Source: Pseudomonadota bacterium
GTDB lineage: Bacteria; Desulfobacterota; Desulfobulbia; Desulfobulbales; SURF-16
DNA: 38,478 nt
Direction of reading: 5' to 3'
NCBI GenBank assembly: GCA_018897105.1
Contig: JAHILF010000119.1
Span: 1-38,478 of the forward strand
Below the pieces are notes generated by a model. It saw only the letters and a list, made by a program, of their open reading frames with translations, was not told where the DNA came from and did not search any database. Position 1 is the first letter of the stretch. The number at the start of each line of letters is the position of its first letter. Shown here piece after piece: positions 22,221-38,383 of the stretch. The position numbers and the translations under genes are program-made.

Positions 22221-22278
22221 GGCATAAGGAGCCGTAACGAAATGCTCAAAAATGAAGCGGTTATTTCGTAATGGCGCC
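22221..22278. repeat. Dispersed palindromic element, type 2, copy 2
   Basis: Reverse complement matches 7704-7762: conserved ACGAAATAACC end, variable centre, then ATTTCGTTACGG and CTCCTTATG. It lies between the ATPase stop and the bioH start and touches the ATPase TAG stop at 22278-22280. It could act as a terminator for the polysaccharide locus. Confidence 0.75.
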
Positions 22279-23477
22279 TAAAAACGAAATGAAAACCAGG
22301 AAGTCTTTTTGGTCTTTTTGTCGGAAACGGACTGCCTGCCTTCATGGGGCTCATCAGTGCCTGCGGCTGCCGGCAAGGAGCTGCTTCCTTCCAGCCACTT
22401 CACCCTTTCCTTGACCCGACCGTATTCGAGAAGCAATTTGCCGCTTTTTTTGCGCTCCTGCTCCAGCTGCGACGTAAGCTGCCGGACAATTTCATCCTTA
22501 AACCCTTCGCCGTGCTTTTCCAGCTCATCCTGCTGCAGAGTGAGTTGGAAACGAAGCTCCTGCACCTGCCTCTCCACAGTGGCGAGACGCTGGACCAGTT
22601 CGGCAAATTCGGCACCGGCGGCTCCGCCCAGTTCCAGCAAAGGCGCGGCAGCTGCCGAAGCTTCCATGGCCCAGGCGAAATCGCCTTTATCTTCAAGAAC
22701 CTGCAGTAAAATATCCTTATCTATCTTTTGCAGCTCGTCGGCAAAACCGTAGACCAGGGCAGAATCACAGAGCAGATTAATCGAGCGCGGCGTGCCGTTT
22801 GAAGCACGGTAAATTTCATCGATGGCTTCCGGGGAGAACAGCTCAGGATCCCCGCCCACCTTCTCCAGCCGCGAGGCGATATAGATCCCCGTCTCCTCCC
22901 TGTTCAACGGCATCAGATGATAATTGACCGCGATACGCTGGGTGAGCTGGGCCAGACCGGGCCGTTTCAGCTTGGCCTTCAACTCCGGCTGGCCGACCAG
23001 CATAATCTGCAGCAGCAAGGTATCATCAGCCTGAAGATTGGAGAGCATGCGCACCTCTTCCAGCACCTCATCAGACAGATTCTGGGCCTCATCAATAATC
23101 AGCAGCACCCGGCTCCGCTTGGCATACTTCTGGATGAGAAACTGGTAGATCCGGTCAAGATTTCTTGCCTTGTCAGTCCCATCCGCTTCCAGTTCAAATT
23201 CCTGGAGGATCAGACTGAGCAGTTGGTTGGCGGATACATTGGTGTTGAAGATCACCGCCACCTCGATTTCCGCCTCAATCTGATTGAGCATGTGGCGGAT
23301 CAGGGTTGTCTTGCCGGTGCCGATTTCGCCGGTGAGCAGAATAAAGCCCATTCCCTCGCGGATGCCATACTCCAGATAGGTCAGGGCATGCTGATGCTTG
23401 GCGCTGAGATAGAGGAAATGGGGATTGGGCACAATATGGAACGGTTTTTCAGAAAGACCGTAAAACTTTTCATACAT
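22278..23477 (-). CDS. XrtA/PEP-CTERM locus-associated AAA ATPase (GspA/ExeA-like)
   Basis: A 399-residue AAA ATPase of the type placed in exopolysaccharide/PEP-CTERM loci. The N-terminus MYEKFYGLSEKPFHIVPNP is the family signature. Walker A is GEIGTGKTT at 50-58 and Walker B LLIIDE at 125-130, followed by AQNLSDEVLEE and a sensor-type VGQPELKAKL. From about residue 285 the protein carries a long coiled coil (about 290-375) that GspA-type proteins lack, then a Ser/Lys-rich tail ending WFSFRF. It likely energises or positions export or assembly in the inner membrane. It is the last gene of the locus on the minus strand. No clear ribosome-binding site was seen. Confidence 0.9.
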   Translation of the reverse strand: MYEKFYGLSEKPFHIVPNPHFLYLSAKHQHALTYLEYGIREGMGFILLTGEIGTGKTTLIRHMLNQIEAEIEVAVIFNTNVSANQLLSLILQEFELEADGTDKARNLDRIYQFLIQKYAKRSRVLLIIDEAQNLSDEVLEEVRMLSNLQADDTLLLQIMLVGQPELKAKLKRPGLAQLTQRIAVNYHLMPLNREETGIYIASRLEKVGGDPELFSPEAIDEIYRASNGTPRSINLLCDSALVYGFADELQKIDKDILLQVLEDKGDFAWAMEASAAAAPLLELGGAAGAEFAELVQRLATVERQVQELRFQLTLQQDELEKHGEGFKDEIVRQLTSQLEQERKKSGKLLLEYGRVKERVKWLEGSSSLPAAAGTDEPHEGRQSVSDKKTKKTSWFSFRF

Positions 23478-23567
23478 AGGCGGTAGCGGCTGTGCCGAAA
23501 ATTAAAGATGGATAAGAGGAGCGGCGGCAGCAATTTGACAGTCTGCATGCCGGAAAATAAATAATAA

Positions 23568-24497
23568 CTAAGCCCCGGTACGGTCATTGAGCACAAAGCC
23601 GAGGAACTTCTCCTGGGGCATAAGCTCAACTGCCTTTTTGACATCAGCCAGGGAGGTAACCCCTTTTTCCACTACCATGACAATGCCGTCCACCAGCGGG
23701 GCAAAAACCATGGCATCGGCTCCATCCAGAACTGCCGGGACGTCGAGAATGACATAGCGGTCAACATAGCGGTTTTTCATTTCCGCCAGCAGTTCCTTCA
23801 TCTTCGGCGAGCCAAGCAGCTCCGTGCTGTCCGATACGGTCCGCCCCCCGGAAATGAGGGTCAGTTTCTCAATTCCCGGCCAGATGATAAAGTCTTTTAA
23901 AGGCATATCATATTCCAGGTAATCAATCAGCCCACGATCGCTGGAAAATTCAAGAAACCGGTGGATATCCTGTTTTTTCAGGTCACAGTCCACCAGCAGG
24001 ACCGTCTGATGATATTCCCTGGCAAAAGTCAGGGCCAGATTGATGGCCGTCATCGTCTTCCCCTCACCCGGTTTGACGCTGGTCACCATAATGGTGTTCA
24101 TGCCCTGCTCTTTGGTGCGTTGCAGAATCTGGGTCCGCAACACCTTGAAGGCATCTAGTTCCGGGGCATCAGAGGTAATACAGATGCAGCGATTTTTAAT
24201 GAGCTTTTGCTGATCAAGCTGCACCGACAGAGATTCTGAATAAACCGGGGCCTGCCAGACACCTCCCTTCAGGGGCGCCGCATGCTCGGACACGTCATCA
24301 TCGCTGCTAAGTACTTCATCCATCTCTACTGGCGCATCCGTCAGATTTTCCTGACGTTCCTTATTTGCTTTATCAAGGGCTTTTCGTAATTTCATATATC
24401 CCATCTCGTAAGCCGGCCCATCCAACCTGGCCGGAATAAATGTTACATCCGAGGTCTCAGCCTCGCCAGACGACAATATTCTCTCCTGCAAAGGCAT
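23568..24497 (-). CDS. XrtA/PEP-CTERM locus tyrosine autokinase-type ATPase (CpsD/Wzc-C-like)
   Basis: A BY-kinase-like P-loop ATPase that regulates polysaccharide chain length with the neighbouring chain-length protein. The motifs are Walker A VKPGEGKT (about 141-148), Walker A' VLLVDCD (166-172) and Walker B YVILDVP (248-254). The N-terminal 100 residues are a poorly conserved linker. The C-terminus ends in FVLNDRTGA with no tyrosine cluster, so autophosphorylation sites of the Wzc type are not evident; one Tyr pair (NRYVDRYV) lies near Walker B. The ATG at 24497 lacks a binding site, while TTG at 24476 has AGGAG spaced 6 bases and may be the true start. It lies 21 bases after the chain-length gene. 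Confidence 0.9.
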   Translation of the reverse strand: MPLQERILSSGEAETSDVTFIPARLDGPAYEMGYMKLRKALDKANKERQENLTDAPVEMDEVLSSDDDVSEHAAPLKGGVWQAPVYSESLSVQLDQQKLIKNRCICITSDAPELDAFKVLRTQILQRTKEQGMNTIMVTSVKPGEGKTMTAINLALTFAREYHQTVLLVDCDLKKQDIHRFLEFSSDRGLIDYLEYDMPLKDFIIWPGIEKLTLISGGRTVSDSTELLGSPKMKELLAEMKNRYVDRYVILDVPAVLDGADAMVFAPLVDGIVMVVEKGVTSLADVKKAVELMPQEKFLGFVLNDRTGA

Positions 24498-24518
24498 GCA
24501 TCGCTGATCCGTGGCTGC

Positions 24519-26081
24519 TTACATCATGCGGCGCGTCAGTTTGGCCCAGAAGACATTCAGATCCATAACAAGAAAATGAAATGCCAGGACGGCAACCAGC
24601 AGGATACCGAGAAGAAGCAAAACACCCCATCTCCTGCGGTGCTTATGCTGCTGCTTATCTTCTGCGCAGCTGATCCGCGGAATGGAGGCCAGAACCGGGA
24701 AAGAGGTTTCACTAACCAGTATTTCCGCCTTGCGGACCGACTGATCACTGAATTCCCTCAGGGCCGCCCAGGCAACTCCCGTACCCATCCCCAGCACAAT
24801 GCCGATGAGCAGAATGGCCAGCCGATTGGGTTTATCAGGCTTTTCCGGCAACCTTGCCGGATCGATCAGGGTAAACCGTTCACCTTTCTGATCCTTTTCC
24901 AGGCCATAGGCAACATTGGCCTCCATCAGCTTCTGGGACAGATCGTCAAATTTCGCCTGTTTGTTCCGCCGTTCGGAAAGGAGAGCGTTGTATGTCTCCT
25001 CAACCCGGGGAGTTGCGTCAATCGATTTATTTAATTTGTCCTCGTTTTTCTCCAGATCATCATTCTGCCGCTTCACTGATTTTATCTCGGCCTGCACACT
25101 GGAAAGCTGGGAGGACAGGTTGATATAGGCCGGATTATCCGGCAATCCACTGGGATTATTCTTCTCATTGGAGCCGATCTTCGTGGTGAGATTCGCAATT
25201 TCCTCTTTGGTTTTAATCACATCCGGGTACTGGTCGGTAAAACGGGTTTCAAGTCTGTTCAATTCAAGCTTCAGACTTTCCAGTCTCTTGATATCCTCCA
25301 TCTCCATTTTGGGGGAGAGATTGGCAAGATCTGACATCAGGGCGCCTTCCCGTTCCTTTAACGAACGGAGCTGTTCACTGAGTCTTTCTTTTGAGGCCTG
25401 GACATTGTGGCGGCTCTGCAGGTTTACCTGCAGCACCTCCGGCAGCTCATTGATATGCTCCTGCTTGAATTGGGCAATTTTCTGTTCAATCTCATCCAGA
25501 CTCTTTTTGACCTTTTTCCGCTCATCCCCAAGAAAAGTCGTAGCCTCCATGGCCTGACGCTCACGCACCTGCAGGTTTTCCTCCAAAAACAGCGAGGCAA
25601 GGATATTGGCAACCTTCTGCACTGTAGCAGGACTTTCCTCGGCCTCATAGGAAAGGGTAAAGGCGATAGTGGCCGTAGCTGGACGACCGGTTTTTCGGTC
25701 GACGACCTCCGCGCTTATATAATCAAGGCTGATATCCTCCCGCATCTTGTCTATGACTTCTTCCGTTGTCGCCTGTTGCCGTAAGTCCTTGTATATATCA
25801 AGACGGGTGATAATTTCCAGCAGTCGGCTGGTGCTCATGATCCGCTGATGAATGGACTGCAGGCGCTGCTCCGCGTAACTGGTCACCGTAGAGGTAACGA
25901 AATTGGCTGGAATTTCCTGCTCTTCAATCAAGATTGTGGAAACAGATTTATAAACCGGCGGCAAGATCAAGGCAACAGCCGCAGAAATCAGCACCACAAG
26001 GACTGCGGGCAACACCAGGCTCCACTTGCGCCGCTTCAGAACCGCCACATAATCATTCGGCGACATTTCATGCTCTTCCAT
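24519..26081 (-). CDS. XrtA/PEP-CTERM locus polysaccharide chain-length determinant
   Basis: Wzz-like inner-membrane co-polymerase that sets polymer length and partners with the tyrosine kinase. The start is ATG 26081 (MEEHEMSPNDYV), with AAAGGAG spaced 6 bases; an upstream TTG at 26096 would add five residues. The protein is 520 residues. Membrane helix 1 is at about 21-42. A long periplasmic part with coiled coils follows (about 165-370), then a GNVR-type region, helix 2 (about 440-460) and an extra helix near 490-512. Wzz proteins normally have two helices, so the third, close to the C-terminus, is a PEP-CTERM-subfamily trait. The next gene downstream is the kinase. Confidence 0.92.
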   Translation of the reverse strand: MEEHEMSPNDYVAVLKRRKWSLVLPAVLVVLISAAVALILPPVYKSVSTILIEEQEIPANFVTSTVTSYAEQRLQSIHQRIMSTSRLLEIITRLDIYKDLRQQATTEEVIDKMREDISLDYISAEVVDRKTGRPATATIAFTLSYEAEESPATVQKVANILASLFLEENLQVRERQAMEATTFLGDERKKVKKSLDEIEQKIAQFKQEHINELPEVLQVNLQSRHNVQASKERLSEQLRSLKEREGALMSDLANLSPKMEMEDIKRLESLKLELNRLETRFTDQYPDVIKTKEEIANLTTKIGSNEKNNPSGLPDNPAYINLSSQLSSVQAEIKSVKRQNDDLEKNEDKLNKSIDATPRVEETYNALLSERRNKQAKFDDLSQKLMEANVAYGLEKDQKGERFTLIDPARLPEKPDKPNRLAILLIGIVLGMGTGVAWAALREFSDQSVRKAEILVSETSFPVLASIPRISCAEDKQQHKHRRRWGVLLLLGILLVAVLAFHFLVMDLNVFWAKLTRRMM

Positions 26082-26111
26082 CTGCACTCCTTTCAACTGT
26101 ATTCATAATAT

Positions 26112-26156
26112 CTAAAGTACGTTAAAGTACTTAAAGTGCCTGAAGTACTTGAACTG
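26112..26156. repeat. Short degenerate tandem array, about 10-bp period
   Basis: Four or five degenerate copies of a unit like TTAAAGTAC occur at about 9-10 base steps between the barrel gene and the chain-length gene. The period is close to one helical turn. Just beyond, 26196-26222 holds another low-complexity stretch with AATCCCAAATCCGAAATCC. No gene is inside; a regulatory role is only possible. Confidence 0.5.
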
Positions 26157-26223
26157 AAAAGTTTTCAGAACGGCAAACCCTTTCCGCCATCTTTCAGTCC
26201 GCAATCCCAAATCCGAAATCCCT

Positions 26224-27381
26224 CTATTCAACCACCGGGTATTTATAGGTCAATTTGACAAACACCAGATTGCGATGTTTTTCGTGATCAGCTTCCCTGT
26301 CCGCTATCACGGTATAGCGGTATGCCGTCTCACAGAAAAGCTCCGGATTGAACTCATAATGCAATGAGGGTGTGAGCGTCGTGGTCAGCTCGTTGAGATC
26401 ACTGACATACGCCGCATCACGGGTCGCTTTGTTCAGGTAGCTGTCAATGCCGAAGCGGACAAAAGACCTTTCGCTGATGCGGTGTTTGAGGCTTAAAACC
26501 AGCCCGGTGCGCTTAGTGGCGCCGTCACGCCCGCTTGATCCGGTCACCTCATGAAAAATATTCATCTCCGCGGTGGTCAATTCCTCATTATAGGTCAGGG
26601 TGAACTGCCCGCCCACACCGTTATCGTATGAGGTTTCGCCTGTTCTCTTCTCACTGCCCTCTGTATACCTGGGACCGATATCAAAAACATAGCTCAATTT
26701 TTCACTGAACTGCCGACTGAAGCCGACTGTCACGCTGTAATTATCCGCCTTGGAGCTGTAAAAATTATAATGGCTGTAACGCCCGTAGAGCCTGGCAGCG
26801 GTTGGTTTGGTAAAGTCAAGGCTATGCGTCAAGCCGGCAAGAACATTCTGCCCGGTAAACTCATCCACATCACTTGTTTCAAACTGATCGTCAAGGTAGG
26901 AGTAGGAGGTGAAGAGAGAGGTTTTTTCTGAGGCCTGATAATCCCCGGAAAAAGAGTAGTCCTGTCGTCTGCGGACATCGGCGGTAAGGACATAGCCGGT
27001 GACATCAAGATCACGATCCGCCCGGGAATCGACAGAGTATCCCGCATCAGCGGACATTTTCAAAAAGGGATTCAACTGGTAGGTTACACTTCCCTTATAA
27101 TACTCTTCGACATCGTTTAATTCACTGTTATCAGCATAGGACAGGCCGTCAAATCGTGTTACCAGAGCAGCCTTCAGTAATTCCGTCCGCTCCCGCACTT
27201 CCAGACCCACCGTGCCGGTGGTAATGAAATCATCCTGCTCGATATCATCGCTGAAGAATATGTTGTCACTGTATTCCTCGCGAATGGCGGCGTAGGGTAT
27301 GACACGGAAATCATCAGCCATGCCGTTTTGAACGGGCAGAACGAATAGGGCTAGCAAGGAAAAAACGGAAAACTTTCTCAT
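26224..27381 (-). CDS. PEP-CTERM system-associated outer-membrane beta-barrel protein
   Basis: A 385-residue outer-membrane protein of the family linked to exopolysaccharide/PEP-CTERM loci, possibly the outer-membrane polysaccharide exit or an anchor. The signal peptide covers about 1-22. The mature part opens with VIPYAAIREEYSDNIFF, a family-like strand, and contains regularly spaced amphipathic strands ending in VFVKLTYKYPVVE. It lacks a terminal Phe. The ATG overlaps the stop of the export gene by 4 bases (ATGA), showing translational coupling. The family's role is uncertain. Confidence 0.87.
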   Translation of the reverse strand: MRKFSVFSLLALFVLPVQNGMADDFRVIPYAAIREEYSDNIFFSDDIEQDDFITTGTVGLEVRERTELLKAALVTRFDGLSYADNSELNDVEEYYKGSVTYQLNPFLKMSADAGYSVDSRADRDLDVTGYVLTADVRRRQDYSFSGDYQASEKTSLFTSYSYLDDQFETSDVDEFTGQNVLAGLTHSLDFTKPTAARLYGRYSHYNFYSSKADNYSVTVGFSRQFSEKLSYVFDIGPRYTEGSEKRTGETSYDNGVGGQFTLTYNEELTTAEMNIFHEVTGSSGRDGATKRTGLVLSLKHRISERSFVRFGIDSYLNKATRDAAYVSDLNELTTTLTPSLHYEFNPELFCETAYRYTVIADREADHEKHRNLVFVKLTYKYPVVE

Positions 27382-27956
27382 GGGACTACAACCACATCTC
27401 CACGGCGGAGCCGGATATTCTGTTGCAGATTCTCTCCGGCAGCAACCTCATCGTAATTGAATTTGAAAATCGTCGTATCTCCCCACTCATCGCGCATGAT
27501 GGTAATTTTTTCGCGATTGGCAAACGGGTTAAGCCCGCCTGCCATGGTAAGCGCCTGCAGCACATTCACATTGGTGCTGAGCTGAAAACGGCCAGGATTG
27601 TTCACCTTGCCGACAACATATATCAGCATGCTGTTCACCTGATGAACGATGACGGTCACCACAGGATCAGGAACAAACTGGGAAACCTTTTGTCTGATTT
27701 CCTCCTTGAGCTGGGAGACGGTTTTTCCCTCTGCCATGAGCTGCCCGATCAAGGGGAAGGAAATTGTACCGTCCGGCAGCACGATCACGGTTTTGGTCTG
27801 GGCTTCATCCTTCCACACGGAAATATCCAGCACATCGCCGGCACCTATCAGGTATGGATCTCCTGTCAGCAGGGGAGAATCCTCGGCAGCCAGCAATGGG
27901 GTGACGGCAAACAGCAGCAGACAGAAAACGAACATCAGACTGAGCAATCTTTTCAT
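27378..27956 (-). CDS. Polysaccharide export protein, Wza/BexD family, PEP-CTERM-locus type
   Basis: Outer-membrane or periplasmic export protein for exopolysaccharide. The 192-residue product has a signal peptide (about 1-23, ending LLAA before Glu) with no lipobox cysteine. It then has a Poly_export domain (DPYLIGAGDVLDISVWKDE, then GTISFPLIGQL) at about 33-115, and one SLBB-type domain (VYVVGKVNNPGRF, NVNVLQALTMAGGL) at about 120-170, ending RRGDVVVVP. Wza itself is twice as long with more SLBB repeats, so the short form fits this subfamily. GAGGAG lies 4 bases before the ATG. The next downstream gene overlaps by four bases. Confidence 0.92.
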   Translation of the reverse strand: MKRLLSLMFVFCLLLFAVTPLLAAEDSPLLTGDPYLIGAGDVLDISVWKDEAQTKTVIVLPDGTISFPLIGQLMAEGKTVSQLKEEIRQKVSQFVPDPVVTVIVHQVNSMLIYVVGKVNNPGRFQLSTNVNVLQALTMAGGLNPFANREKITIMRDEWGDTTIFKFNYDEVAAGENLQQNIRLRRGDVVVVP

Positions 27957-28077
27957 CGTACTCCTCGTAAAAACATTAGGTAGTCAGGCATATTGGCAAA
28001 CAAACCTGCTTTAGCATAGTTAGGTTATCTGTGACAAGAAAATTCCGGCGCCACGCAAAAACCTTGCAGGATCTTTT

Positions 28078-30483
28078 TTACTTCAAGCTCTTTAACAAAT
28101 CCCCGGCCTTGTCGATACCATTAAAATTCTGCCCGCTGTTCACTGCATCCTGCAGATGCTGCCGGGCTTCCTCTTTACGTCCTGTCTCAACAAGCACCAC
28201 GCCCAGGTGATAGTTGAGAATAGCATTTGTCGGGTCTGCGCTCTGCGCCTGGCTGATGATCTCCGCGGCTCGCTGGGAATTCCCCATTTTATAGTAAACC
28301 CAGCCCAGGGTGTCCAGCAGCTCAGGCTCATTAGGCCGCACCTCCTGGGCCTGCTGAACGAGCTGCAAAGCCCTTTCCATATTTTCCGGGCTTGAAGCGT
28401 ATTCACTGAGCAGAAAGGCCAGGTTGTTTGCCGCAGGCCAGAACTTGTCATTTTTGGCCAATGCCCGCTCATAGACGGCCATGGCCTTGTCATATTTCCC
28501 GGTCTGCTCATAGAGCATGGCAAGAGAAAGATAGGTCCCAGCGCTGTTGGGATCAACCTCCAGCGCCTGTTCAAATTTGGCAATGGCCACATCAGGCTTG
28601 CCTTTCATAACATAGAGGGCTGCCAGGCTGTTATGGGGGATAAGCCATTCGGGATTCAATTCAATGGCTTTGTTAAAGGCCTTTTCGGCAGGGTCAAAAT
28701 CCTTGCGGCTCAGATAAACTCGGCCCAGCAGATTATAGGTAAAGGCATCCCTGGGATTTTCCGCGATCCTCTTTTCACAGAGGGCAATGGCCTTATTAAA
28801 TTGCTTCTCAACAAGATATACCTGGGCCAGAGCAGAGATCAGCTGCAGAGAATTCTTGTTGACGCCGTACCCTTTCTCGAGCAGGGCGGCAGCCTCCTTC
28901 TTTTGCCCTTTTTTCCACAACAGATTGCTGAGGCGTAAATAACCGATGGGGTTATCAGGGGCCATGGCGATAATTTTTTCATATTCTCCTCTGGCTGCAT
29001 CCGTTTTCTGCCCGATAACATAAAAATCACCCAGTGCGGCCCGAACCTGTAGATCATCTCCGTTCTTGGCCAGAAACGCCTTGATGGTTTCCTCCGCCGC
29101 GCCGGTATCTTCTTTCACCATGTAATACTTCACAAGTCTCTGTAAAATCTCACGGGAATCCGGGTTTGCCTCAAGTCCCTTTTTCAGTGTTTCTCCCGCC
29201 AGCTCAATCTGCTTGTTCATAAAATGGGCTTCAGCCAGGCGCAGATAGGCCGGTACATTTTGCGGCTGCTCGGTGCCGATAACCCGGAACTCAGACACAG
29301 CGCTCTCACCATCCCCCTTTAACAGAAAGATGTTCCCCTTGGTGAAATGGGCATCGATACTTTTAGGATTTTCTTTCAGCACTTCATCCACCATGGAAGA
29401 CGCTTTATCAATTTCTCCCCGCCTGAGATAGATCTTGGCCAGAACATTTTTTGTCTGAAGAATGGCGGGGGCGGCAGGGTCGCTTTCAAGGGTAAGACAC
29501 TGCTCCAGCAGCTTGACCGCCTCATCAATTTTGTTGTCGTTAAGATAGAATTCACTGAGCTGGAAGCGGACCAGAAAACTTTTCGGCAGTTTGCTTAACG
29601 CCGCAATCAACGTCTCTTCGGCCAATTCCTTCTCTTTTTTTGCCGCATAGAATTTGGCCACTTTCAAGGTCACCTCATCCTCTGCCGGCTCTTTAGCGAG
29701 AAGGGCGCTTAATTTTTTTGTCGCCTCATCCTTATCTCCCTTTTCCCATTGCAGGCTGGCAAGAGCCAATTTGTGATCAATATTATCAGGCTCGATTTCA
29801 TTGATTTTCTTATAAATTGCAATGGTCTCATCAATGTTGCCCTGCTGCGCGGCCACCCTGGCAAGAATTATATGGAAATTTATCTCTTTCGGGTTAACCT
29901 TCAATCCTTGCCTGACCAAATCAAGGGCCTTGTCCCTTTCCCCGCGATGGTCATAAATCGAGGCGAGCAGAATATAGGTTTTCGGCTCGGTTACTCCCCT
30001 GTCGAGCAATCCTTTCAAGATTTTTTCGGCCTCGTCTGTTTTTTCCAGCTGGATGAGAATGGCGCTTTTTAACTGCAGCGCCTCCGTGTTCTCCGGCTCC
30101 TTGGCCAGCACCAGATCCACTTTTTCCTGGGCCTGTTCCGGACTTTTTGCCGCCAGCAGCAGCTTGCCCAGTTCAAGTTGGGCGGCAGTCAGATTCGGAT
30201 CAAGCTCCACCGCCTTGGACAATGAGCCATAAGCGCCTCGAGGATTACCATCCTTAAGATCCGTCAAACCGAGGTAATAGTAGGCTTCGGCATAATTAAG
30301 ATCGATCTGGATGGCATTCTTTAACTCCAGTCGTGCCTTGACATAATCCCCCTGTTCGTATAGAGCTTTACCCTTCTCCAGGAATCCGGCCTTCTTCTTT
30401 TCCGGGCCACCGCAACCGGCGGAGGCAAATAAAACGAAAAAGATTAGAAAGATACCAACAATTTTGCAGGAACGATTTACCAT
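28078..30483 (-). CDS. prsT: TPR-repeat lipoprotein, PrsT-like, XrtA/PEP-CTERM locus
   Basis: An 801-residue envelope lipoprotein made almost wholly of tetratricopeptide repeats (about 20), likely a scaffold for exopolysaccharide or surface-protein handling. The signal sequence ends at the lipobox SAGC with Cys24 as acylation site. From about residue 35 on, repeats such as GKALYEQGDYVKARLELKNA and LGRVYLSRKDFDPAEKAFNK follow with 34-residue spacing. PrsT proteins begin with the same lipoprotein-TPR plan but are usually somewhat longer. GAGGG lies 5 bases before the ATG. It is probably the first gene of the locus, with about 120 bases before the export gene and a divergent regulatory gap upstream. 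Confidence 0.85.
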   Translation of the reverse strand: MVNRSCKIVGIFLIFFVLFASAGCGGPEKKKAGFLEKGKALYEQGDYVKARLELKNAIQIDLNYAEAYYYLGLTDLKDGNPRGAYGSLSKAVELDPNLTAAQLELGKLLLAAKSPEQAQEKVDLVLAKEPENTEALQLKSAILIQLEKTDEAEKILKGLLDRGVTEPKTYILLASIYDHRGERDKALDLVRQGLKVNPKEINFHIILARVAAQQGNIDETIAIYKKINEIEPDNIDHKLALASLQWEKGDKDEATKKLSALLAKEPAEDEVTLKVAKFYAAKKEKELAEETLIAALSKLPKSFLVRFQLSEFYLNDNKIDEAVKLLEQCLTLESDPAAPAILQTKNVLAKIYLRRGEIDKASSMVDEVLKENPKSIDAHFTKGNIFLLKGDGESAVSEFRVIGTEQPQNVPAYLRLAEAHFMNKQIELAGETLKKGLEANPDSREILQRLVKYYMVKEDTGAAEETIKAFLAKNGDDLQVRAALGDFYVIGQKTDAARGEYEKIIAMAPDNPIGYLRLSNLLWKKGQKKEAAALLEKGYGVNKNSLQLISALAQVYLVEKQFNKAIALCEKRIAENPRDAFTYNLLGRVYLSRKDFDPAEKAFNKAIELNPEWLIPHNSLAALYVMKGKPDVAIAKFEQALEVDPNSAGTYLSLAMLYEQTGKYDKAMAVYERALAKNDKFWPAANNLAFLLSEYASSPENMERALQLVQQAQEVRPNEPELLDTLGWVYYKMGNSQRAAEIISQAQSADPTNAILNYHLGVVLVETGRKEEARQHLQDAVNSGQNFNGIDKAGDLLKSLK

Positions 30484-30665: not shown

Positions 30666-32099
30666 GTGAAATTTTACCGCCCAAAATCATTTCTCATTCT
30701 GCTGCTGGCTGGTTTTTTATTTGTCGCACTGCCTCTCCTGGCTGCTTTGGCAAGCTCAGCCTATTTCATGGAAAAAATGGCCGTGCACAGCACCCAGGCC
30801 GTATTCTGGTCAGCCAATTCCGCCAGGGAAAGCCGTTCATTGCTTGAACAGCTTGTTGAACAAGAGCGCCAGGCCCGCATCTACGACCTCTTTGCCGAGC
30901 CTGAAAATCTGCAGGGCATCCTGGAAAAACATGATAAAATCCAAGAAATTCTTAAAAATCTCTCTGCGTTTCCTTTTAGCGACACCATCAAAAACAGAAT
31001 CAGAAAATTAAAAACAGAGGAAAACAAACTTTTCAATCTCATTACCGATGCCGGCCAGAAGCGTGAAAGGAAAAAAAACCTTGATTATTACAGAGAACTG
31101 AGCATCCTGGCCCAGGAAATTCAGGAAGCCAGTTATAATCTGATGTTCCTGGAAACGGAAAACCTGCAGAAAGAAGCTTTCCGCTACCAGAAAATGATGT
31201 TCTGGCTCACCTCCATTCTCTTTTTTGTCAGCCTCATTATCATTTCCATCTTTGCCTATCTGCTTATCCGACCAATACGCCAGATCGACAAAAGCATCCT
31301 CAGGCTCGGCGAAGGCGATTTTGTTACTCCGGTTTACGTTTCAGGACCGAAGGATCTGGAATTCCTGGGCACAAAGCTCGATTGGCTCAGAGAAAGACTT
31401 GGCGAACTTGAGAAAGAAAAAAACAAATTCGTGGCCCACATTTCCCATGAACTGAAAACCCCTCTCTCATCAATCCGCGAGGGCACAGGCCTTCTCAGTG
31501 AAGAGGTGGTCGGTTCCCTGACCTCTCAGCAAAAAGAGGTGGTCAAAATTCTGGCAAACAACAGCAGACTTTTGCAGAAGTTGATCGAAAATATTGTTAA
31601 TTTCAATATGGCCCAGGCCCGGAATCGCCCTCCGCAAAAAAAACATTTTGCCCTGGACCAGTTGATTTCCGAGGTTGTGGAAGACCATAAACCAATTCTT
31701 CTTGTCAATGACCTGCACCTGCACCTGCATCTGATGCCAACATCAATTTTCGGTGACAGCGATCAAATTCGCACGGTAATCGATAACATTCTCTCCAATG
31801 CCATCAAACACTCGCCAGCAGCAAGCGACATCTCCATTACCTTGAAAACCGGTATGGAAATGACTATTATTGACATTATCGACTGCGGGCCAGGCGTCCC
31901 GGAGGAAGAGAGGTCAAAAATATTCCGTCCTTTTTTCCAGGGGCAGACCGCACAGAAAGGAAGAGTTAAAGGCACCGGTCTCGGGTTGGCAATTGCCAAC
32001 GAATATATGGCTAATCACCATGGAACGATCGAAGTCCTGCCAGATGCAGGAAATGGTGCACATTTCAGATTATCTCTCCCTATTGAGGAAATAATATGA
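30666..32099 (+). CDS. glrK: GlrK/QseE-like envelope sensor histidine kinase
   Basis: A 477-residue membrane sensor kinase. Helix 1 is at about 9-30. A mostly helical periplasmic domain (about 35-178) follows, rich in Glu/Lys/Gln and of the GlrK kind, then helix 2 (about 179-201), HAMP (about 202-250) and HisKA with phospho-acceptor His261 in SHELKTP. The HATPase part has DNILSNAIKHS, DCGPGVP and GTGLGLAIA. The start is GTG at 30666 with no visible ribosome-binding site. It overlaps the lipoprotein gene by 4 bases (ATGA). With the lipoprotein and sigma-54 regulator it reproduces the enterobacterial glrK-qseG-glrR order. The large PEP-CTERM kinase PrsK, with many helices and GAF, is excluded by size. 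Confidence 0.85.
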   Translation: MKFYRPKSFLILLLAGFLFVALPLLAALASSAYFMEKMAVHSTQAVFWSANSARESRSLLEQLVEQERQARIYDLFAEPENLQGILEKHDKIQEILKNLSAFPFSDTIKNRIRKLKTEENKLFNLITDAGQKRERKKNLDYYRELSILAQEIQEASYNLMFLETENLQKEAFRYQKMMFWLTSILFFVSLIIISIFAYLLIRPIRQIDKSILRLGEGDFVTPVYVSGPKDLEFLGTKLDWLRERLGELEKEKNKFVAHISHELKTPLSSIREGTGLLSEEVVGSLTSQQKEVVKILANNSRLLQKLIENIVNFNMAQARNRPPQKKHFALDQLISEVVEDHKPILLVNDLHLHLHLMPTSIFGDSDQIRTVIDNILSNAIKHSPAASDISITLKTGMEMTIIDIIDCGPGVPEEERSKIFRPFFQGQTAQKGRVKGTGLGLAIANEYMANHHGTIEVLPDAGNGAHFRLSLPIEEII

Positions 32100-32626
32100 C
32101 AAAATATATCCGCAGGATGATTTTTCCCCTGTTTTCTTTAATCATGTGCACGCTTATTGCAAGTTGTATTCCTCAACCAACGTACATTATTGTACCGGAA
32201 ACCCAGAAAGTTGAGGTAAAAACGCTGCACCCCCCCTCAGAGGAGATTCTGACCTGTCTGAATTTCAGCCTTAGTCTTCCTGCTGAGCAACTCGAAGAAG
32301 AGTTCAGCAAACAAAAGGAAGCATTCATTGCTGAGAGTACTGATAAAAACAGGTCCAAACTGATCTGCCTGAGCCTTGCACGATTGGACAAGCCTGACTC
32401 GCTGGAATACGCACAGGAGCTGATGAACGACATGCAACACATTGATAAAGCGCACTACCCGGATATCAAAGGCCTTGCAGCTCTCCTTAGTTACTTCCAG
32501 CATCTCCAGGAAAAAAGAATTGAAGATGTAAGCAGAGCGCAACAACAGGTTAACGAACTGAAGCAAAAGCTTGAAGAACTGAAAAGCATTGATGAGATTA
32601 TAAAAAAACGCAAGGATGATAATTAA
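32096..32626 (+). CDS. QseG/GlrL-like outer-membrane lipoprotein of the GlrKR operon
   Basis: A 176-residue lipoprotein between kinase and regulator. The lipobox is IASC with Cys24 after a basic and hydrophobic signal. The mature part is charged and helical, with a coiled coil at about 140-170 (RAQQQVNELKQKLEEL). In Enterobacteria the gene at this place (QseG) stimulates or localises the GlrK kinase from the outer membrane (known for that family); the same role here is inferred from position and architecture. The sequence itself is weakly conserved. It overlaps glrK by 4 and glrR by 11 bases, so the three are translationally coupled. Confidence 0.8.
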   Translation: MTKYIRRMIFPLFSLIMCTLIASCIPQPTYIIVPETQKVEVKTLHPPSEEILTCLNFSLSLPAEQLEEEFSKQKEAFIAESTDKNRSKLICLSLARLDKPDSLEYAQELMNDMQHIDKAHYPDIKGLAALLSYFQHLQEKRIEDVSRAQQQVNELKQKLEELKSIDEIIKKRKDDN

Positions 32627-33974
32627 ACCAAAAATATTGCTGGTTGACGACGACACTGATCTGCTCAGCCTTTTCACTATGCGTCTGCAAAGTCAGGGAT
32701 TTGACGTAGAGACTGCTGAAAGCGGCGAGCAGGCGCTTGCGCGCATTCCTCTTATCAATCCCCACGTACTGATTACCGATCTGCGCATGGGAGAAATGGA
32801 TGGCATGGACCTGTTTGAGGCTGTCCACAGCATGAACAGTTCCCTGCCGGTCATCGTCATTACCGCTCACGGCTCCATACCTGATGCCGTTGAGGCAACC
32901 AAACAGGGTGTATTTTCCTTTCTTACCAAACCGGTTGATAGCCAGAAGCTGATCCAGGAAATCAACTCCGCCCTGACCCTGAGCGGTGCCGTCGCAGGCC
33001 TGCATGAAAAAAAGCAGACAGAGGAAGAGGACTGGTGCAGTAATATTGTTTACAAGAGCAGCGCCATGGCCAACCTCCTGCAAAAGGCCAAGCTTGTCGC
33101 CCAAAGTGATGCCAGCGTGCTTATTCTCGGGGAAAGCGGCACAGGCAAAGAAGTGCTGGCAAATGCGATCCACAAGGCAAGCTCCCGGTCTTCCGGTCTT
33201 TTTGTTGCAGTCAATTGCGCGGCTATTCCCGAGGCCCTGCTCGAATCAGAACTTTTCGGCCACACCAAAGGTTCATTCACCGGCGCCGCTAAAAACTATG
33301 ACGGCCTTTTCAAAAGCGCCAACCACGGCACGCTGTTCCTCGATGAGATTGGCGACATGCCCATTTCCCTGCAGGTGAAACTCCTGCGTGTGTTGCAGGA
33401 AAAGCAGGTGCGCCCCGTGGGTTCCACCATAACTATTGATGTGGATGCGCGGATTATTTCCGCCACCCATCGCAATATTGATGCGGCTGTGAAAGATAAA
33501 AGCTTCCGGGAGGATCTTTTTTACCGGCTTAATGTTGTGAGTCTTGAGATTCCGCCCCTCCATAAGCGGCGTGAGGATATTCCCCTGCTGGCCCACCATT
33601 TCGTCAAAAAAATTACCGCACAAAACGGCAAGGAAATTCGCGGATTCTCCCCATCAGCCATGAAGTTGCTCATGGAGGCATCATGGCCGGGCAATATTCG
33701 GCAGCTGCAGAATGTGGTAGAACAGGCGGTTGCCCTTTCATCATCACCCCTTATAACTGAAAATCTCCTCTCCGATGCCTTAAAGCAAAAACCCATAAAA
33801 ATTATGCCTTTTGCCGAAGCACGTCGTATTTTTGAGCAGGAATATCTCGTGCAGCTGCTGCAGACCACCCAGGGTAACGTCACGGAAGCAGCCCGCCAGG
33901 CCAAACGCAACCGTACCGACTTCTACAAACTGCTCAACCGCCACCATATTGTTCCCAGTCTTTTCAAGGAATGA
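32616..33974 (+). CDS. glrR: Sigma-54-dependent response regulator GlrR
   Basis: A 452-residue enhancer-binding protein. The receiver domain (about 5-120) has Asp55 as the phosphorylation site. The AAA+ domain has Walker A GESGTGKE (172-179), Walker B FLDEIGD and the sigma-54-contact loop as GSFTGA (219-224), a serine in place of the usual alanine. A Fis-type HTH (about 419-445) ends the protein. The recognition segment NRTDFYKLLNRHHI closely resembles that of E. coli GlrR (from memory), which binds TGTC-N10-GACA. A perfect copy of such a dyad lies at 35802-35823, with a sigma-54 promoter further downstream. The lipoprotein gene overlaps its start by 11 bases. Confidence 0.92.
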   Translation: MIIKPKILLVDDDTDLLSLFTMRLQSQGFDVETAESGEQALARIPLINPHVLITDLRMGEMDGMDLFEAVHSMNSSLPVIVITAHGSIPDAVEATKQGVFSFLTKPVDSQKLIQEINSALTLSGAVAGLHEKKQTEEEDWCSNIVYKSSAMANLLQKAKLVAQSDASVLILGESGTGKEVLANAIHKASSRSSGLFVAVNCAAIPEALLESELFGHTKGSFTGAAKNYDGLFKSANHGTLFLDEIGDMPISLQVKLLRVLQEKQVRPVGSTITIDVDARIISATHRNIDAAVKDKSFREDLFYRLNVVSLEIPPLHKRREDIPLLAHHFVKKITAQNGKEIRGFSPSAMKLLMEASWPGNIRQLQNVVEQAVALSSSPLITENLLSDALKQKPIKIMPFAEARRIFEQEYLVQLLQTTQGNVTEAARQAKRNRTDFYKLLNRHHIVPSLFKE

Positions 33975-34103: not shown

Positions 34104-35801
34104 ATGAATGATTACTCGGAAAGCCTGCTTGTTCATTTCAGGCGCAGTGAAGCATTGAAACAGGAAGCCATCGGATTTCCTTCCTTTGACTTAAACCTCC
34201 GGCAACTCTGCGACCTGGAACTCCTCCTGAACCGCGCCTTTTATCCTCTGGACGGCTACCTGGACCAAGCGGACTACCAGAGCGTTCTTTCACAGATGCG
34301 CCTTACCGATAATACCGTATGGCCCATGCCCATTTGCCTTGATGTTACGGGGAAAATCGCCAACACCCTGAAGACCGGTGCCAAATTGGGGTTAAACGAC
34401 CAGGAGGGCTTTCTCCTGGCCATTCTTACCATCTCCGACATCTGGCAGCCGGATAAAAAGATGGAGGCCGCGGCAATTTTCGGCACGGCTGACGCAAAAC
34501 TTCATCCAGGGGTAAAAAATCTCTATGAGAACACAAATGAATGGTATGTCGGAGGGACTCTAGAAGGAATCAGCCTGCCCATCCATTATGATTTCAAGGA
34601 GATACGCCTCTCACCGGCAGAAACCCATCGCCGCTTCTCCTTAAACGGCTGGCGGCATGTCATTGGTTTTCACACTGATGCCTATCTCCATTGCGCCCAC
34701 AAGGAAATGATCTTGAAAGCAGCCAGAGATGCCGGGGCCAACATTTTTCTGCAGCCGGTTGCAGGTCTCGACCACCCCGGCAATCTTGACCATTATACCC
34801 ATGTCCGCTGCTATCAGGAGTTCATAAAAAAATTCCCGAGGAACATGATCAGTCTGGGGCTTCTGCCACTGGCCAGCCGGGGTGCCGGTCCCAGGGAGGC
34901 GCTCTGGCAGGCTATTATAAAAAGAAATTTCGGCTGCACTCATTTTCTGGTGGCAGACGATCATGGCGATCCCTTTGCCAGCCATCTTGACAAAGATAAT
35001 TTCTACCTCGCCGGTGTGGCGCAAAAGCTTGTCAAACAATACGAAGACGAGATCGGCATCAAGATGGTTGCCGAGGAAAAAATGGTCTACGTGGAAGACC
35101 AGGCTCAGTATGTGCCGCTGAAAGAGGTCAGCAATGATATGGGGATGAAAACCATCTCCTCAAGCGAACTGCAACGGCGTCTTGAAAACGGCCTGGAAAT
35201 CCCTGATTGGTTTTCTTACCCTGAAGTTGTCTCCGAATTGCGACGCGCTTTCCCCCCCCGCTCCAAACAGGGATTTACCATTTTCATCACAGGGCTGTCC
35301 GGTTCCGGCAAATCTACTCTGGCCAAGGTTCTGATGGTAAAATTTCTGGAAATGCGTGATCGCCCCGTTACCCTTCTTGACGGTGATATTGTTCGCAAAA
35401 ACCTGTCCAGCGAATTATCCTTTTCCAAGGAACACCGCAACCTCAACATTACCCGGATCGGTTTTGTTGCCAGTGAAATCACCAAAAACGGCGGCATCGC
35501 TCTGTGTGCCCCCATAGCCCCTTACGAAGAATCCCGGCAGGCAAACCGGGAACTTATCAGCAAATGCGGCGGTTACATCGAAGTTTATATGGCAACGCCT
35601 CTGGAAGTCTGCGAACAGCGCGATAGAAAAGGACTTTATGCCAAGGCAAGGGCAGGGAAAATTCCCGGATTCACAGGAGTTTCCGACCCATACACCCCCC
35701 CTTCAACCGCTGAGATAACCATTGACACCAGCGAAATGACCCCGGCCGAAGCAGCCCAGGAAGTACTTCTTTATCTGGAGGAACAGGGTTACATTCGCTG
35801 A
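34104..35801 (+). CDS. cysC: Sulfate adenylyltransferase-like/APS kinase fusion with altered sulfurylase motifs
   Basis: A 565-residue fusion. Residues about 1-385 are ATP sulfurylase-like; residues about 390-565 are APS kinase. The kinase half looks functional: P-loop GLSGSGKS (397-404), DGD (426-428), and the later PYEESR and GLYAKARAG with GFTG. It should make PAPS from APS. The sulfurylase half keeps AGPREA, GCTHFLV and the two histidines His196 and His199. However, the sulfate/ATP-site QxRN is HTDA (190-193) and GRDHAG is ADDHGD (284-289), replacing both signature arginines with aspartate. It probably cannot bind sulfate normally, so it may be structural or use another substrate. AAGGGG lies 10 bases before the ATG. 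The dissimilatory Sat would be elsewhere. Confidence 0.88.
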   Translation: MNDYSESLLVHFRRSEALKQEAIGFPSFDLNLRQLCDLELLLNRAFYPLDGYLDQADYQSVLSQMRLTDNTVWPMPICLDVTGKIANTLKTGAKLGLNDQEGFLLAILTISDIWQPDKKMEAAAIFGTADAKLHPGVKNLYENTNEWYVGGTLEGISLPIHYDFKEIRLSPAETHRRFSLNGWRHVIGFHTDAYLHCAHKEMILKAARDAGANIFLQPVAGLDHPGNLDHYTHVRCYQEFIKKFPRNMISLGLLPLASRGAGPREALWQAIIKRNFGCTHFLVADDHGDPFASHLDKDNFYLAGVAQKLVKQYEDEIGIKMVAEEKMVYVEDQAQYVPLKEVSNDMGMKTISSSELQRRLENGLEIPDWFSYPEVVSELRRAFPPRSKQGFTIFITGLSGSGKSTLAKVLMVKFLEMRDRPVTLLDGDIVRKNLSSELSFSKEHRNLNITRIGFVASEITKNGGIALCAPIAPYEESRQANRELISKCGGYIEVYMATPLEVCEQRDRKGLYAKARAGKIPGFTGVSDPYTPPSTAEITIDTSEMTPAEAAQEVLLYLEEQGYIR

Positions 35802-36121: not shown

Positions 36122-38383
36122 ATGCGTTTTATAAGGATTTTTTTCACAATGAGATTAATTTTAAAATTTCCCCTGTCGGTTTTCCATACTTTGTCTTCTT
36201 TCTCTGCCGCAAAGACTTCATTCCTGCCACAGCGTAAAATCCATCCGGCATCGATCCTTTTATCCTTTTTCTTCCTCATTTTTTTTTGCACGCCGCCAGA
36301 ATGCCACGCTGTTACCCTGACTTGGGCGGCCAATGATCCCATAGAAAATGTCACGGGGTACAAAATTTATTACGGCAGCGCCTCCCGCCAATACAGCAGT
36401 TCAAAGAATGTCGGCAATGTCACATCCTGCGAAATTGAAGATGTTATCAGTACACTTGAAGTCGGTAAAACCTATTATCTGACTGCCACTGCTTATTCAG
36501 CCACCTCTGAAAGCGATTTTTCCTCTGAACTAGTCTATACCCACACAACTGTTCTGAGCGCAGTTTCGGACACGCAAATTATTGACACAGATGGAGACGG
36601 CATCAGTGATGAGGACGAGCTCTACTATGGGTCTGACCCAAACTTGTATGATTCTGACAACGACGGCATCAGTGACGGAGAAGAGCTTGCTCTCTGGGCC
36701 CAGGACTGGGACGCGGACTACGATGCCGACTCCATTATCAACCTGCTTGATGACGATGCAGACGGCGACGGCATCCTCGATGGTGAAGACAATGACCCGG
36801 CAGCGGCGGCCCCGCTTTTCACAACTCCAGAATATCCGGAAGGGGCAGGTGTAAAAGGGCTCGCAGCATTCGACAACAACTGGCAACCCGTAACCTTTAA
36901 CGCAGGATTTACCAGTCCCGTGGTGATTGCCGGTCCGGCCTCTTACACCGATGTTGATCCTGGCCTGATACGTCTGCAGAATATTACCGGCAACTCTTTT
37001 GAAATAAAATTTCAGGAATGGCAATACATGGCCAACCAAGGCCTTGCTGCCCACGATTTTGAAGAAGCCTCATACCTGGTTCTGGAAAAAGGCGTGCACT
37101 ATATGTATGACGGTTCCATTTGGGAGGCAGGCATTTTTGAACATTCAGGTTCTACCACAAGCACCTTATGGAAAACGGTTTATTTTGCCGCCAAATTTCC
37201 GGCCACCCCGTATTTATTTCTAACAATACAGACATATAATGGATCTCAGCCGGTTATTGTCAGAGTAAATAATCTTACCGAGGCGAAATTTCAAGCCGCC
37301 CTGTTTGAAGAAGAAGCCCTGCTGGATGGTCATGCCATCGAAAAAATCGGCTATCTTGCCGTTTACAGCCCCAGCAGAGCAGGTGAATTAAATGGGGATG
37401 ACGCTACTTACCGTTTTGGCCTGAATCAGACAGATTCCATTTTCACATCAATTCATGGTCATGAGATCAAACTGCAGGAAGAACAATCAGCCGATGCCGA
37501 AACCGCGCATTCAAGTGAAAGCGTCAATGCACTGCAGATAGGCAGAACTTTTTTTGCCCAGGCGACAAGCTTCTTAGGTTCAGACCCATTCAGCCTGAGA
37601 CAGCGTCCCACTTTTTATTCAACAACCTCGGTCACCGATAAATGGTACACCGTGCCTGTGGATAAAGAATACGAAAACCCGGTTGTCATTGCAGGTCCCC
37701 CCTCTTTTAATGACGCCGACCCTGGCGTCATCCGGCTGAGCAACGTCACGGGCAGTTCCTTTGAGATAAAATTTCAGGAATGGTATTACTTAAACGCAAA
37801 AGATGCACGCATTCATAAACCTGAAGACGTATCCTGGTTGGTTATGGAACCTGGTCGTTACACAATGGCGGACGGCAGCGTATGGGAAGTCGGGACATTT
37901 AACATCTATGGAACCGGGCTCTGGTTCAACCTTAATTTCAGCCAGCCCTTTATTGCAACCCCTGCCCTCTTTTTAACTATGCAAACCGATAATGGATCCA
38001 ATACAGTAACAGTCCGGGCTCGTGGAGTCAGCCCTCTTGGCCTGGAGGCCGCGCTTTTTGAAGAAGAAGCAGATATGACAAGTGGCCACACAACCGAGAC
38101 TATCGGCTATTTAGCTATATACTACAGCCCGAACTCTTCCGGAACCGCAACAATCGATAACAAGAAAATCTCTTATACGACCACCCTTGTTTTAGCAGAT
38201 GATCACTTTACCTCTGCATCTGGCCGGGAAATAAAAATGGAAGAGGAGCAATCACTTGATAGTGAGACATCTCATCCGTATGAAATTTTGAATATTTTAA
38301 CCATCAACAATGCTTTTTTTGGTCAGGAAATCAGCTCGTTCGGAGAGGACACTGTTGCGCCCCGATACAGAATGGCGCAATAG
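36122..38383 (+). CDS. Secreted surface protein with Fn3-like domain, calcium repeats and four H-lectin-like repeats
   Basis: A 753-residue exported protein. A long, basic N-terminal extension (1-42) precedes a hydrophobic signal segment (about 43-56) and likely cleavage after CHA (63). Residues about 64-142 resemble an Fn3 strand set (VTLTWAANDP to AYSATSESDFSSELVYT). Residues about 155-225 carry DTDGDGISDEDE-type thrombospondin-3/calcium repeats. The rest is a duplication: modules at about 253-484 and 507-740, offset by about 254 residues, each with two H-type-lectin-like units (PVVIAGP, FEIKFQEW, then a second with FEEEA and IGYLA). There is no PEP-CTERM or LPXTG tail. The predicted start has no strong binding site; ATG at 36149 has AAGGA spaced 11 bases and may be used. 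It is driven by a sigma-54 promoter. Confidence 0.85.
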   Translation: MRFIRIFFTMRLILKFPLSVFHTLSSFSAAKTSFLPQRKIHPASILLSFFFLIFFCTPPECHAVTLTWAANDPIENVTGYKIYYGSASRQYSSSKNVGNVTSCEIEDVISTLEVGKTYYLTATAYSATSESDFSSELVYTHTTVLSAVSDTQIIDTDGDGISDEDELYYGSDPNLYDSDNDGISDGEELALWAQDWDADYDADSIINLLDDDADGDGILDGEDNDPAAAAPLFTTPEYPEGAGVKGLAAFDNNWQPVTFNAGFTSPVVIAGPASYTDVDPGLIRLQNITGNSFEIKFQEWQYMANQGLAAHDFEEASYLVLEKGVHYMYDGSIWEAGIFEHSGSTTSTLWKTVYFAAKFPATPYLFLTIQTYNGSQPVIVRVNNLTEAKFQAALFEEEALLDGHAIEKIGYLAVYSPSRAGELNGDDATYRFGLNQTDSIFTSIHGHEIKLQEEQSADAETAHSSESVNALQIGRTFFAQATSFLGSDPFSLRQRPTFYSTTSVTDKWYTVPVDKEYENPVVIAGPPSFNDADPGVIRLSNVTGSSFEIKFQEWYYLNAKDARIHKPEDVSWLVMEPGRYTMADGSVWEVGTFNIYGTGLWFNLNFSQPFIATPALFLTMQTDNGSNTVTVRARGVSPLGLEAALFEEEADMTSGHTTETIGYLAIYYSPNSSGTATIDNKKISYTTTLVLADDHFTSASGREIKMEEEQSLDSETSHPYEILNILTINNAFFGQEISSFGEDTVAPRYRMAQ

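Follow-up and report, generated by a model that had tools for sequence, protein, structure and literature searches.

A Sulfurylase–APS Kinase Fusion with an Altered Sulfurylase Site in a Desulfobulbales Genome: A Probable APS Kinase from a Large Clade

Introduction

Among the described fusions of a sulfurylase-like domain with an APS kinase, Tbd_0210 of Thiobacillus denitrificans (PDB 3cr8) has the same domain order as the protein analyzed here. In 2009, Gay et al. reportedly found this enzyme to have APS kinase activity without sulfurylase activity, and less than 2% of the kinase activity is said to have been left once the first domain was removed. T. denitrificans has a separate ATP sulfurylase (Sat). 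A similar composition, with a domain predicted to stabilize a hexamer, is ascribed to this enzyme in the available part of PMC13213808. The same part describes EhAPSK of Entamoeba histolytica (PDB 23vk), which consists of a sulfurylase-like domain without activity and an active C-terminal kinase. Removal of its sulfurylase-like domain lowered kcat from 1270 to 9.5 per second (approximately 100-fold), together with the authors' own warning that the truncated protein aggregates, and residue E90 was located at the contact between this domain and the kinase (PMC13213808, same part).

The bifunctional enzyme of Aquifex aeolicus (PDB 2gks) has the same architecture and fold as the present protein, and its kinase domain is termed active in the accessible text of PMC3779200 and low-activity in that of PMC13213808. 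The ATP sulfurylase of Penicillium chrysogenum (1i2d) also has this architecture with one of the two domains decayed; in Penicillium, the kinase-like domain decayed and is now a PAPS-binding regulator, whereas in the present protein it is the sulfurylase.

We analyzed a window of 38,478 nucleotides, i.e., the whole stretch of DNA given by contig JAHILF010000119.1 of assembly GCA_018897105.1 (Desulfobulbales). An earlier note on this window had described its fusion protein as the reverse of the fungal case. The description is apt in that the sulfurylase decayed and the kinase was kept, but it is not new, as the T. denitrificans enzyme and EhAPSK are published (available parts of PMC13213808, PMC3734648, and PMC6715247). 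The mechanism is already known in kind, and the new part is a large clade with recurrent decay. This clade is unnamed in the literature found by our search, which spanned titles and the beginnings of abstracts and left most subscription papers uncovered.

Results

Domain Layout of the Fusion Protein

The open reading frame at 34104–35801 (+) starts with ATG, encodes 565 residues, and contains no internal stop. Its features are as follows.

34104–35801 (+): pseudo-ATP-sulfurylase/APS kinase fusion, 565 residues
34128–34571 (+): PUA-like domain (PUA_2), N-terminal, residues 9–156
34599–35246 (+): ATP-sulfurylase-like domain (PF01747, 2.8e-62), residues 166–381, fold retained according to a predicted model and substrate-binding residues altered
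34671–34700 (+): HTDAYLHCAH, residues 190–199, replacing QTRNPxHRAH in the alignment
34953–34973 (+): ADDHGDP, residues 284–290, replacing GRDHAGP in the alignment
35268–35798 (+): APS kinase domain, residues 389–565, the only PF01583 match of the genome
35292–35315 (+): kinase P-loop GLSGSGKS, residues 397–404

The protein has the domain plan of the T. denitrificans type of two-domain APS kinase, in which a PUA-like domain and a sulfurylase fold precede the kinase, and all three scored far over the Pfam cut-offs, with the APS_kinase match (PF01583) spanning residues 389–541 at 4.4e-56. The kinase part passed TIGR00455 (180.4 bits, cut-off 138.7). The whole fusion passed NF004040, the NCBIfam model of the bifunctional enzyme (859.7 bits, cut-off 669), so that such genomes are likely credited with a second ATP sulfurylase, which is most likely a non-working one.

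When aligned to the Penicillium ATP sulfurylase (1i2d), QTRNPMHRAH paired with HTDAYLHCAH and GRDHAGP with ADDHGDP. The motifs and positions given in the earlier note were exact, both for the change of QTRN into HTDA (H190-T-D-A193) and of GRDHAG into ADDHGD (A284-D-D-H-G-D289), and for the fold markers that it listed as retained, i.e., AGPREA (261–266), GCTHFLV (277–283), and the two histidines of L195-H-C-A-H199. The kinase motifs are likewise whole (P-loop GLSGSGKST, 397–405; LLDGD, 424–428). The best solved-structure match of the kinase was the kinase part of the T. denitrificans enzyme (300.6 bits), and the P-loop, LLDGD, CAPIAPY, and RDRKGLYA are common to the window, T. denitrificans, and Entamoeba APS kinases.

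An AlphaFold2 model built from 28 sequences had a mean pLDDT of 87.7. Comparison with solved structures gave Z values of 49.5 for yeast ATP sulfurylase, 48.0 for the Penicillium enzyme (551 residues), 43.7 for the Aquifex PAPS synthetase (518 residues), and 36.1 for the T. denitrificans APS kinase (479 residues). According to this predicted model, the sulfurylase fold is retained, which by itself says nothing on function.

The described types were then compared with the fusion. A bifunctional PAPS synthetase of the Aquifex type keeps QxRN and GRDH; A. aeolicus retains QTRN and GRDH, whereas the window protein does not. A fungal-type enzyme combines a decayed kinase with an intact sulfurylase, which is the opposite state, and a dissimilatory Sat has canonical loops and no kinase domain, a description that applies to another gene of this genome, on contig C53, and not to the fusion. 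The sequence features of the T. denitrificans type were all found, that is, lost sulfurylase residues, whole kinase motifs, and a separate canonical Sat (present in the window's own genome, not detected in 17 of the 101 genomes of the class that carry a fusion). The decay itself differs, as Tbd_0210 has QARQ and GGEH where canonical enzymes have QTRN and GRDH, and it fell outside the window's group on a motif-blind tree (see below), but on a long branch (length 1.8). EhAPSK is unlike the window protein in that it has no substrate-binding loop, forms a dimer, and is mitosomal; its sulfurylase-like domain is far diverged (40 bits to the window protein over 95 residues). Its E90 aligns with E101 in the PUA-like domain of the window protein, using a numbering offset of 23 inferred from the chain end, and E101 was invariant in all 135 rows of our alignment, canonical fusions included.

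Loss of Sulfurylase Residues across a Clade

In A. vinosum Sat, as described in the available part of PMC3779200, Q199, R201, and the A299 backbone hold the sulfate oxygens of APS, whereas T200, R201, and N202 bind its alpha-phosphate. The ribose is contacted by G295, H298, and the backbone of R296, and D237 forms a pair with R201. Alignment to this enzyme gave H190, T191, D192, A193, and N227 as the window counterparts of Q199, T200, R201, N202, and D237, and A284, D285, H287, and G288 as those of G295, R296, H298, and A299. The earlier statement that both lost arginines touch sulfate or ATP phosphate is right for the first, but the second is cited for a backbone oxygen in that part of PMC3779200. 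Both HxxH histidines are retained in the window protein; changes of the HxGH histidines abolish sulfurylase activity in human PAPS synthetase 1, according to the accessible text of PMC11697783.

Within the phylum, 35 of 395 genomes gave fusion matches; within the class of the window, 101 of 257 did so. A pattern survey, which reaches close relatives only, gave 33 related loci from named genomes, including Desulfurivibrio, Desulfobulbaceae, and Desulfopila, names that suggest Desulfobulbia as this class; among cultured relatives, Desulfopila aestuarii has the gene (locus L015). Merging of identical sequences reduced 151 rows to 135, which were then aligned and comprised 94 with an LHC signature, by which the clade was defined, 12 that are canonical in both loops, and 29 other sequences. 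None or one of the six positions Q199, R201, N202, G295, R296, and R365 is retained in 85 of the 94 clade members. R285 and N193 are missing in all 94 and Q190 in 87, and H190 is present in 87. Position 192 is E in 36, D in 27, R in 21, and another residue in 10; R192 is hence lost in 73 members, and where retained it is always followed by E or D. The anion-binding positions vary freely in the clade, charge included (E, D, R, and K at 192). LDGD was found in 134 of the 135 rows and the P-loop in all of them (125 by one pattern and ten by eye). These motif counts agree with the earlier claim that the sulfurylase site was stripped of its signature residues and the kinase kept.

HTDA and ADDH also occur in the four nearest relatives, which are 94, 91, 90, and 89% identical and come from four different contigs, and this rules out a local sequence error; the canonical motifs in close relatives that the earlier note had named as the sign of such an error did not occur. 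The check that it had suggested, of whether HTDA/ADDHGD marks a conserved clade, was positive in part: there is a conserved clade with altered motifs, but the exact pair is confined to the nearest relatives of the window. The pair of aspartates is, in the aligned rows, one local form of a loss that spans the clade.

A tree was built by a quick search from 70 of 137 rows (the 135 plus two PDB chains) with the motif columns excluded. It united 27 LHC rows and one row without the signature in one group (SH-aLRT 99). Parsimony on this motif-blind tree gave at least 6 changes between canonical and non-canonical states, 9 for R192 alone, and 6 for R285 alone, for one tree in which four rows are long-branched and whose starred branches force fewer changes (2 for the canonical label). 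The tree by itself cannot separate gain from loss, of which loss is the more sensible direction to assume.

Selection on the Two Domains

Purifying selection was observed on both domains. Among 12 rows of close relatives, the median dN/dS was 0.061 for the sulfurylase-like domain (33 of 66 pairs usable), 0.028 for the kinase (52 of 66), and 0.097 for the PUA-like domain, after pairs with saturated or too small dS, a fifth to half of the 66, had been dropped. Since these ratios show constraint, the sulfurylase-like domain is needed. A decaying pseudogene was ruled out by the dN/dS of 0.06 and by the lack of an internal stop among the matches listed for the 101 class genomes, a few of these matches being partial. 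One internal stop was present in 3 of the 35 phylum-wide matches, all three outside the clade.

The APS-contact positions of the clade were no better conserved than the domain as a whole (entropy 1.32 vs. 1.18, P 0.71), also upon dropping the clade-defining positions (entropy 1.51, P 0.88). The suggestion that the domain serves another nucleotide reaction thereby gains no support. The contact positions appeared conserved in the canonical fusions (entropy 0.42 vs. 0.84, P 0.013), in a control that is partly circular as six of the fourteen contact positions had served to pick the rows; the eight non-picking positions gave P 0.35, and 13 rows taken from two tree groups independently of motifs gave P 0.07. 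The contrast between the clade and the canonical fusions is suggestive, and the result for the clade itself stands.

Sat, APS Kinase, and Sulfotransferase Genes

The genome of the window (4.95 Mb, 177 contigs, completeness 100) contains one separate canonical Sat (QLRN, GRDHAG) on C53 and, on a different contig from the fusion, a tandem pair of Sulfotransfer_3 genes, and no second APS kinase was found in it by PF01583. Similarly, 89 of the 101 fusion genomes of the class are without a further APS-kinase match. Another 76 genomes have APS-kinase matches but no fusion, and 80 have neither; the non-fusion matches listed were mostly frames of about 200–300 residues, and those APS kinases are therefore stand-alone. 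A sulfotransferase (PF13469) was detected in 69 of the 101 fusion genomes, 46 of the 76, and 7 of the 80, and, at completeness of at least 90%, in 82 of 116 genomes with a fusion or APS kinase vs. 3 of 32 with neither, all of these being raw genome tallies uncorrected for kinship. The sole APS kinase, the two sulfotransferases, and the co-occurrence in the class fit the earlier idea that the fusion supplies PAPS for sulfation, but its polysaccharide part is seen at one locus only (see below). They suggest that sulfation by way of PAPS takes place in many bacteria of this sulfur-cycle class. As a separate observation, an APS-kinase match lies approximately 245–255 bp from a sulfotransferase match on the opposite strand at G583:C13, G580:C16, G589:C14, and G581:C2 (handles for genome and contig).

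A second PF01747 match occurs in 80 of the 101 fusion genomes and a single match in 21. Beyond the window's own Sat, only a few of these 80 were read, being canonical in G506, G516, and the partial copies of G407 and G615, and the rest were counted. Four of the 21 single-match genomes hold Sat fragments (70–97% identity), and neither Sat nor a fragment was found in the remaining 17 of the 101. This set consists of G507–G512, G526, and ten others, most of which are incomplete, with G526 being 98% complete. Six incomplete genomes of one genus are all without Sat, but G506, a single-contig member of that genus, has it. These 17 genomes stand against a simple story in which Sat supplies APS. For genomes in which Sat was not found, CysN was considered as the supplier of APS and was rejected, with 0 of 18 genomes over the cut-off. 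CysQ was rejected as a class-wide marker of PAP recycling, as 0 of 257 class genomes were over the cut-off; weaker matches were present in 127.

Gene Neighborhood

The region at 30666–33974 (+), upstream of the fusion, encodes a histidine kinase, a small lipoprotein-like protein of 176 residues, and a sigma-54 response regulator that is nearest to GlrR, under the cut-off of that model; the order is that of E. coli glrK-qseG-glrR. A gap of 129 bp separates the end of this two-component stretch from the fusion. Of the 39 clade loci with at least 3 kb on either side, 11 have a relative of its kinase close to the fusion and 11 a relative of its regulator; these lie upstream in relatives of the window but downstream in other loci. 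Another family is located beside the fusion in 13 loci, and its sampled member is VanZ-like. Neighborhood absences are weak because only 39 of the 93 clade loci are flanked in this way. Two further features flank this part of the window.

22278–30483 (−): XrtA/PEP-CTERM-type exopolysaccharide genes, several under the models' cut-offs
36122–38383 (+): protein with H-type lectin, TSP3, and weak fibronectin-type matches, retained on the downstream side of the fusion in L004, L005, and L006

The exopolysaccharide genes comprise an ATPase, a tyrosine autokinase, a chain-length determinant, a TIGR03016-like outer membrane protein, an export protein, and a PrsT-like TPR protein. They lie beyond the two-component system on the strand opposite to the fusion. 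Among the 93 clade loci, three contained a PrsT-like gene at >60% identity, and none contained an XrtA-type ATPase, tyrosine kinase, or chain-length gene; the ATPase was present in 1 of 40 other loci. Membership of the fusion in an exopolysaccharide operon was hence rejected as a general link, the proximity being restricted to the closest relatives. The idea of polysaccharide sulfation that had been drawn from this locus is not general, but it has one direct example elsewhere, namely L023.

At L023:995–9677, from a named metagenome-assembled genome, a sulfotransferase, glycosyltransferase-like genes (identified by eye), cysQ, and a clade-type fusion occur in one stretch. The sulfotransferase is located about 6 kb upstream of the fusion (PF13469, 66.8 bits, cut-off 27), with the glycosyltransferase-like genes and cysQ between the two, and the cysQ passes TIGR01331. 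Among the loci examined, L023 alone combines a sulfotransferase, a PAP phosphatase, sugar genes, and the fusion. Using the two sulfotransferases of the genome as queries, to which the L023 hit was then added, a sulfotransferase was found near the fusion in only this one of 94 neighborhoods. The check for sulfotransferase genes beside orthologues, as suggested in the earlier note, was positive at L023 but not in the other 93. A sulfotransferase motif matched 0 of 649 neighboring open reading frames, and this motif is too strict, fitting one of the genome's two sulfotransferases. CysQ is encoded by the next upstream open reading frame on the same strand in four clade loci (L023, L025, L027, and L028), with about 70 to 540 bp to the likely start of the fusion. 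These loci belong to families other than that of the window, and the support from cysQ comes from other families because no class genome exceeded its cut-off. Two genomes whose fusions lie outside the clade have a CysQ match under the cut-off upstream of the fusion: in G506 it is encoded on the same strand and ends at a distance of 60 bp, and in G403 it is on the other strand at 1.2 kb.

Farther away in the window, 19971–22166 (−) holds biotin genes for BioD (dethiobiotin synthase), BioC, and an alpha/beta hydrolase that may be a pimeloyl esterase, and 13580–14371 (+) encodes a relative of the (R)-S-adenosyl-methionine hydrolase/fluorinase family, under the models' cut-offs.

Discussion

We consider it probable that the fusion is a monofunctional APS kinase, which converts Sat-derived APS into PAPS and retains its pseudo-sulfurylase as a scaffold or activator. 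The separate canonical Sat would produce APS from ATP and sulfate, and the C-terminal kinase would add a 3′-phosphate from ATP to convert this APS into PAPS. The sulfotransferases encoded elsewhere in the genome would then consume PAPS to give a sulfated product. The sulfurylase-like domain, presumably devoid of sulfurylase activity, would no longer bind sulfate and ATP productively; it would assemble, position, or activate the kinase, and hence be kept, as experiments have shown for EhAPSK and reportedly also for Tbd_0210.

A pure scaffold does not account for the kept Thr/His/Asp set together with the fixed C197, D289, and S353. H199 is retained in 94 of the 94 clade members, T191 in 89, H196 in 87, D286 in 86, and H287 in 84; C197 and D289 are fixed in all 94 (among the 12 canonical rows, the first of these sites is always R and the second is D in 3), and S353 is also newly fixed. 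It was thus considered whether the kept histidines, together with C197 and D289, form a putative regulator site at which APS, PAPS, ADP, or a different nucleotide would bind and control the kinase, a reading that we regard as unlikely. The Thr/His/Asp set is conserved beyond the domain background (entropy 0.36, P 0.017, for a set picked post hoc with two clade-defining positions), and a decayed partner domain became a PAPS-binding regulator in fungi, as stated in the available part of PMC3734648. C197, however, belongs to the signature that served to define the clade, so that its fixation follows in part from this choice, and the anion-binding positions are free to vary, even in charge. Furthermore, the LHxAH and DHxDP forms are also present in some neighboring lineages and may be structural. 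It is rather unlikely, in the same vein, that the pocket was rebuilt, with the His/Thr/Asp set, C197, and D289 forming a putative new site for a ligand or a metal, through which PAPS synthesis would be regulated. If true, this would mean control over PAPS in bacteria of the sulfur cycle, whose respiration also runs through APS.

It is very improbable that the domain is still an ATP sulfurylase with altered residues and the protein a true PAPS synthetase. The kept HxxH, the R192 of 21 members, and the 17 fusion genomes with no other Sat speak for such an enzyme, but R285 and N193 are missing throughout the clade and Q190 nearly so, the window's genome has its own canonical Sat, and a second PF01747 match exists in 80 of the 101 fusion genomes. 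Least probable of all is a kinase that acts on a substrate other than APS, e.g., an envelope sugar nucleotide, for which CysC-like kinases with other substrates in capsule loci offer a precedent and to which the fusion genomes lacking both Sat and CysN, or a PF13469 match (32 of 101), would conform, but the kinase passes TIGR00455, shares its motifs with the T. denitrificans and Entamoeba APS kinases, and co-occurs with sulfotransferases much as other APS-kinase matches do.

With the fusion read as a probable APS kinase on a pseudo-sulfurylase, the survey provides a natural series, made up of the canonical fusions, several other lineages with alterations, and a single large clade. This makes it testable whether an enzyme domain that is redundant through a separate Sat has repeatedly been turned into a scaffold for its partner. 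As a minor observation among the sequences collected, one genome carries two divergent fusions of the QTSKxIHRLH type, which are adjacent and in opposite orientation (G425:C187:2131–6237, locus L146), and additionally a clade-type fusion elsewhere.
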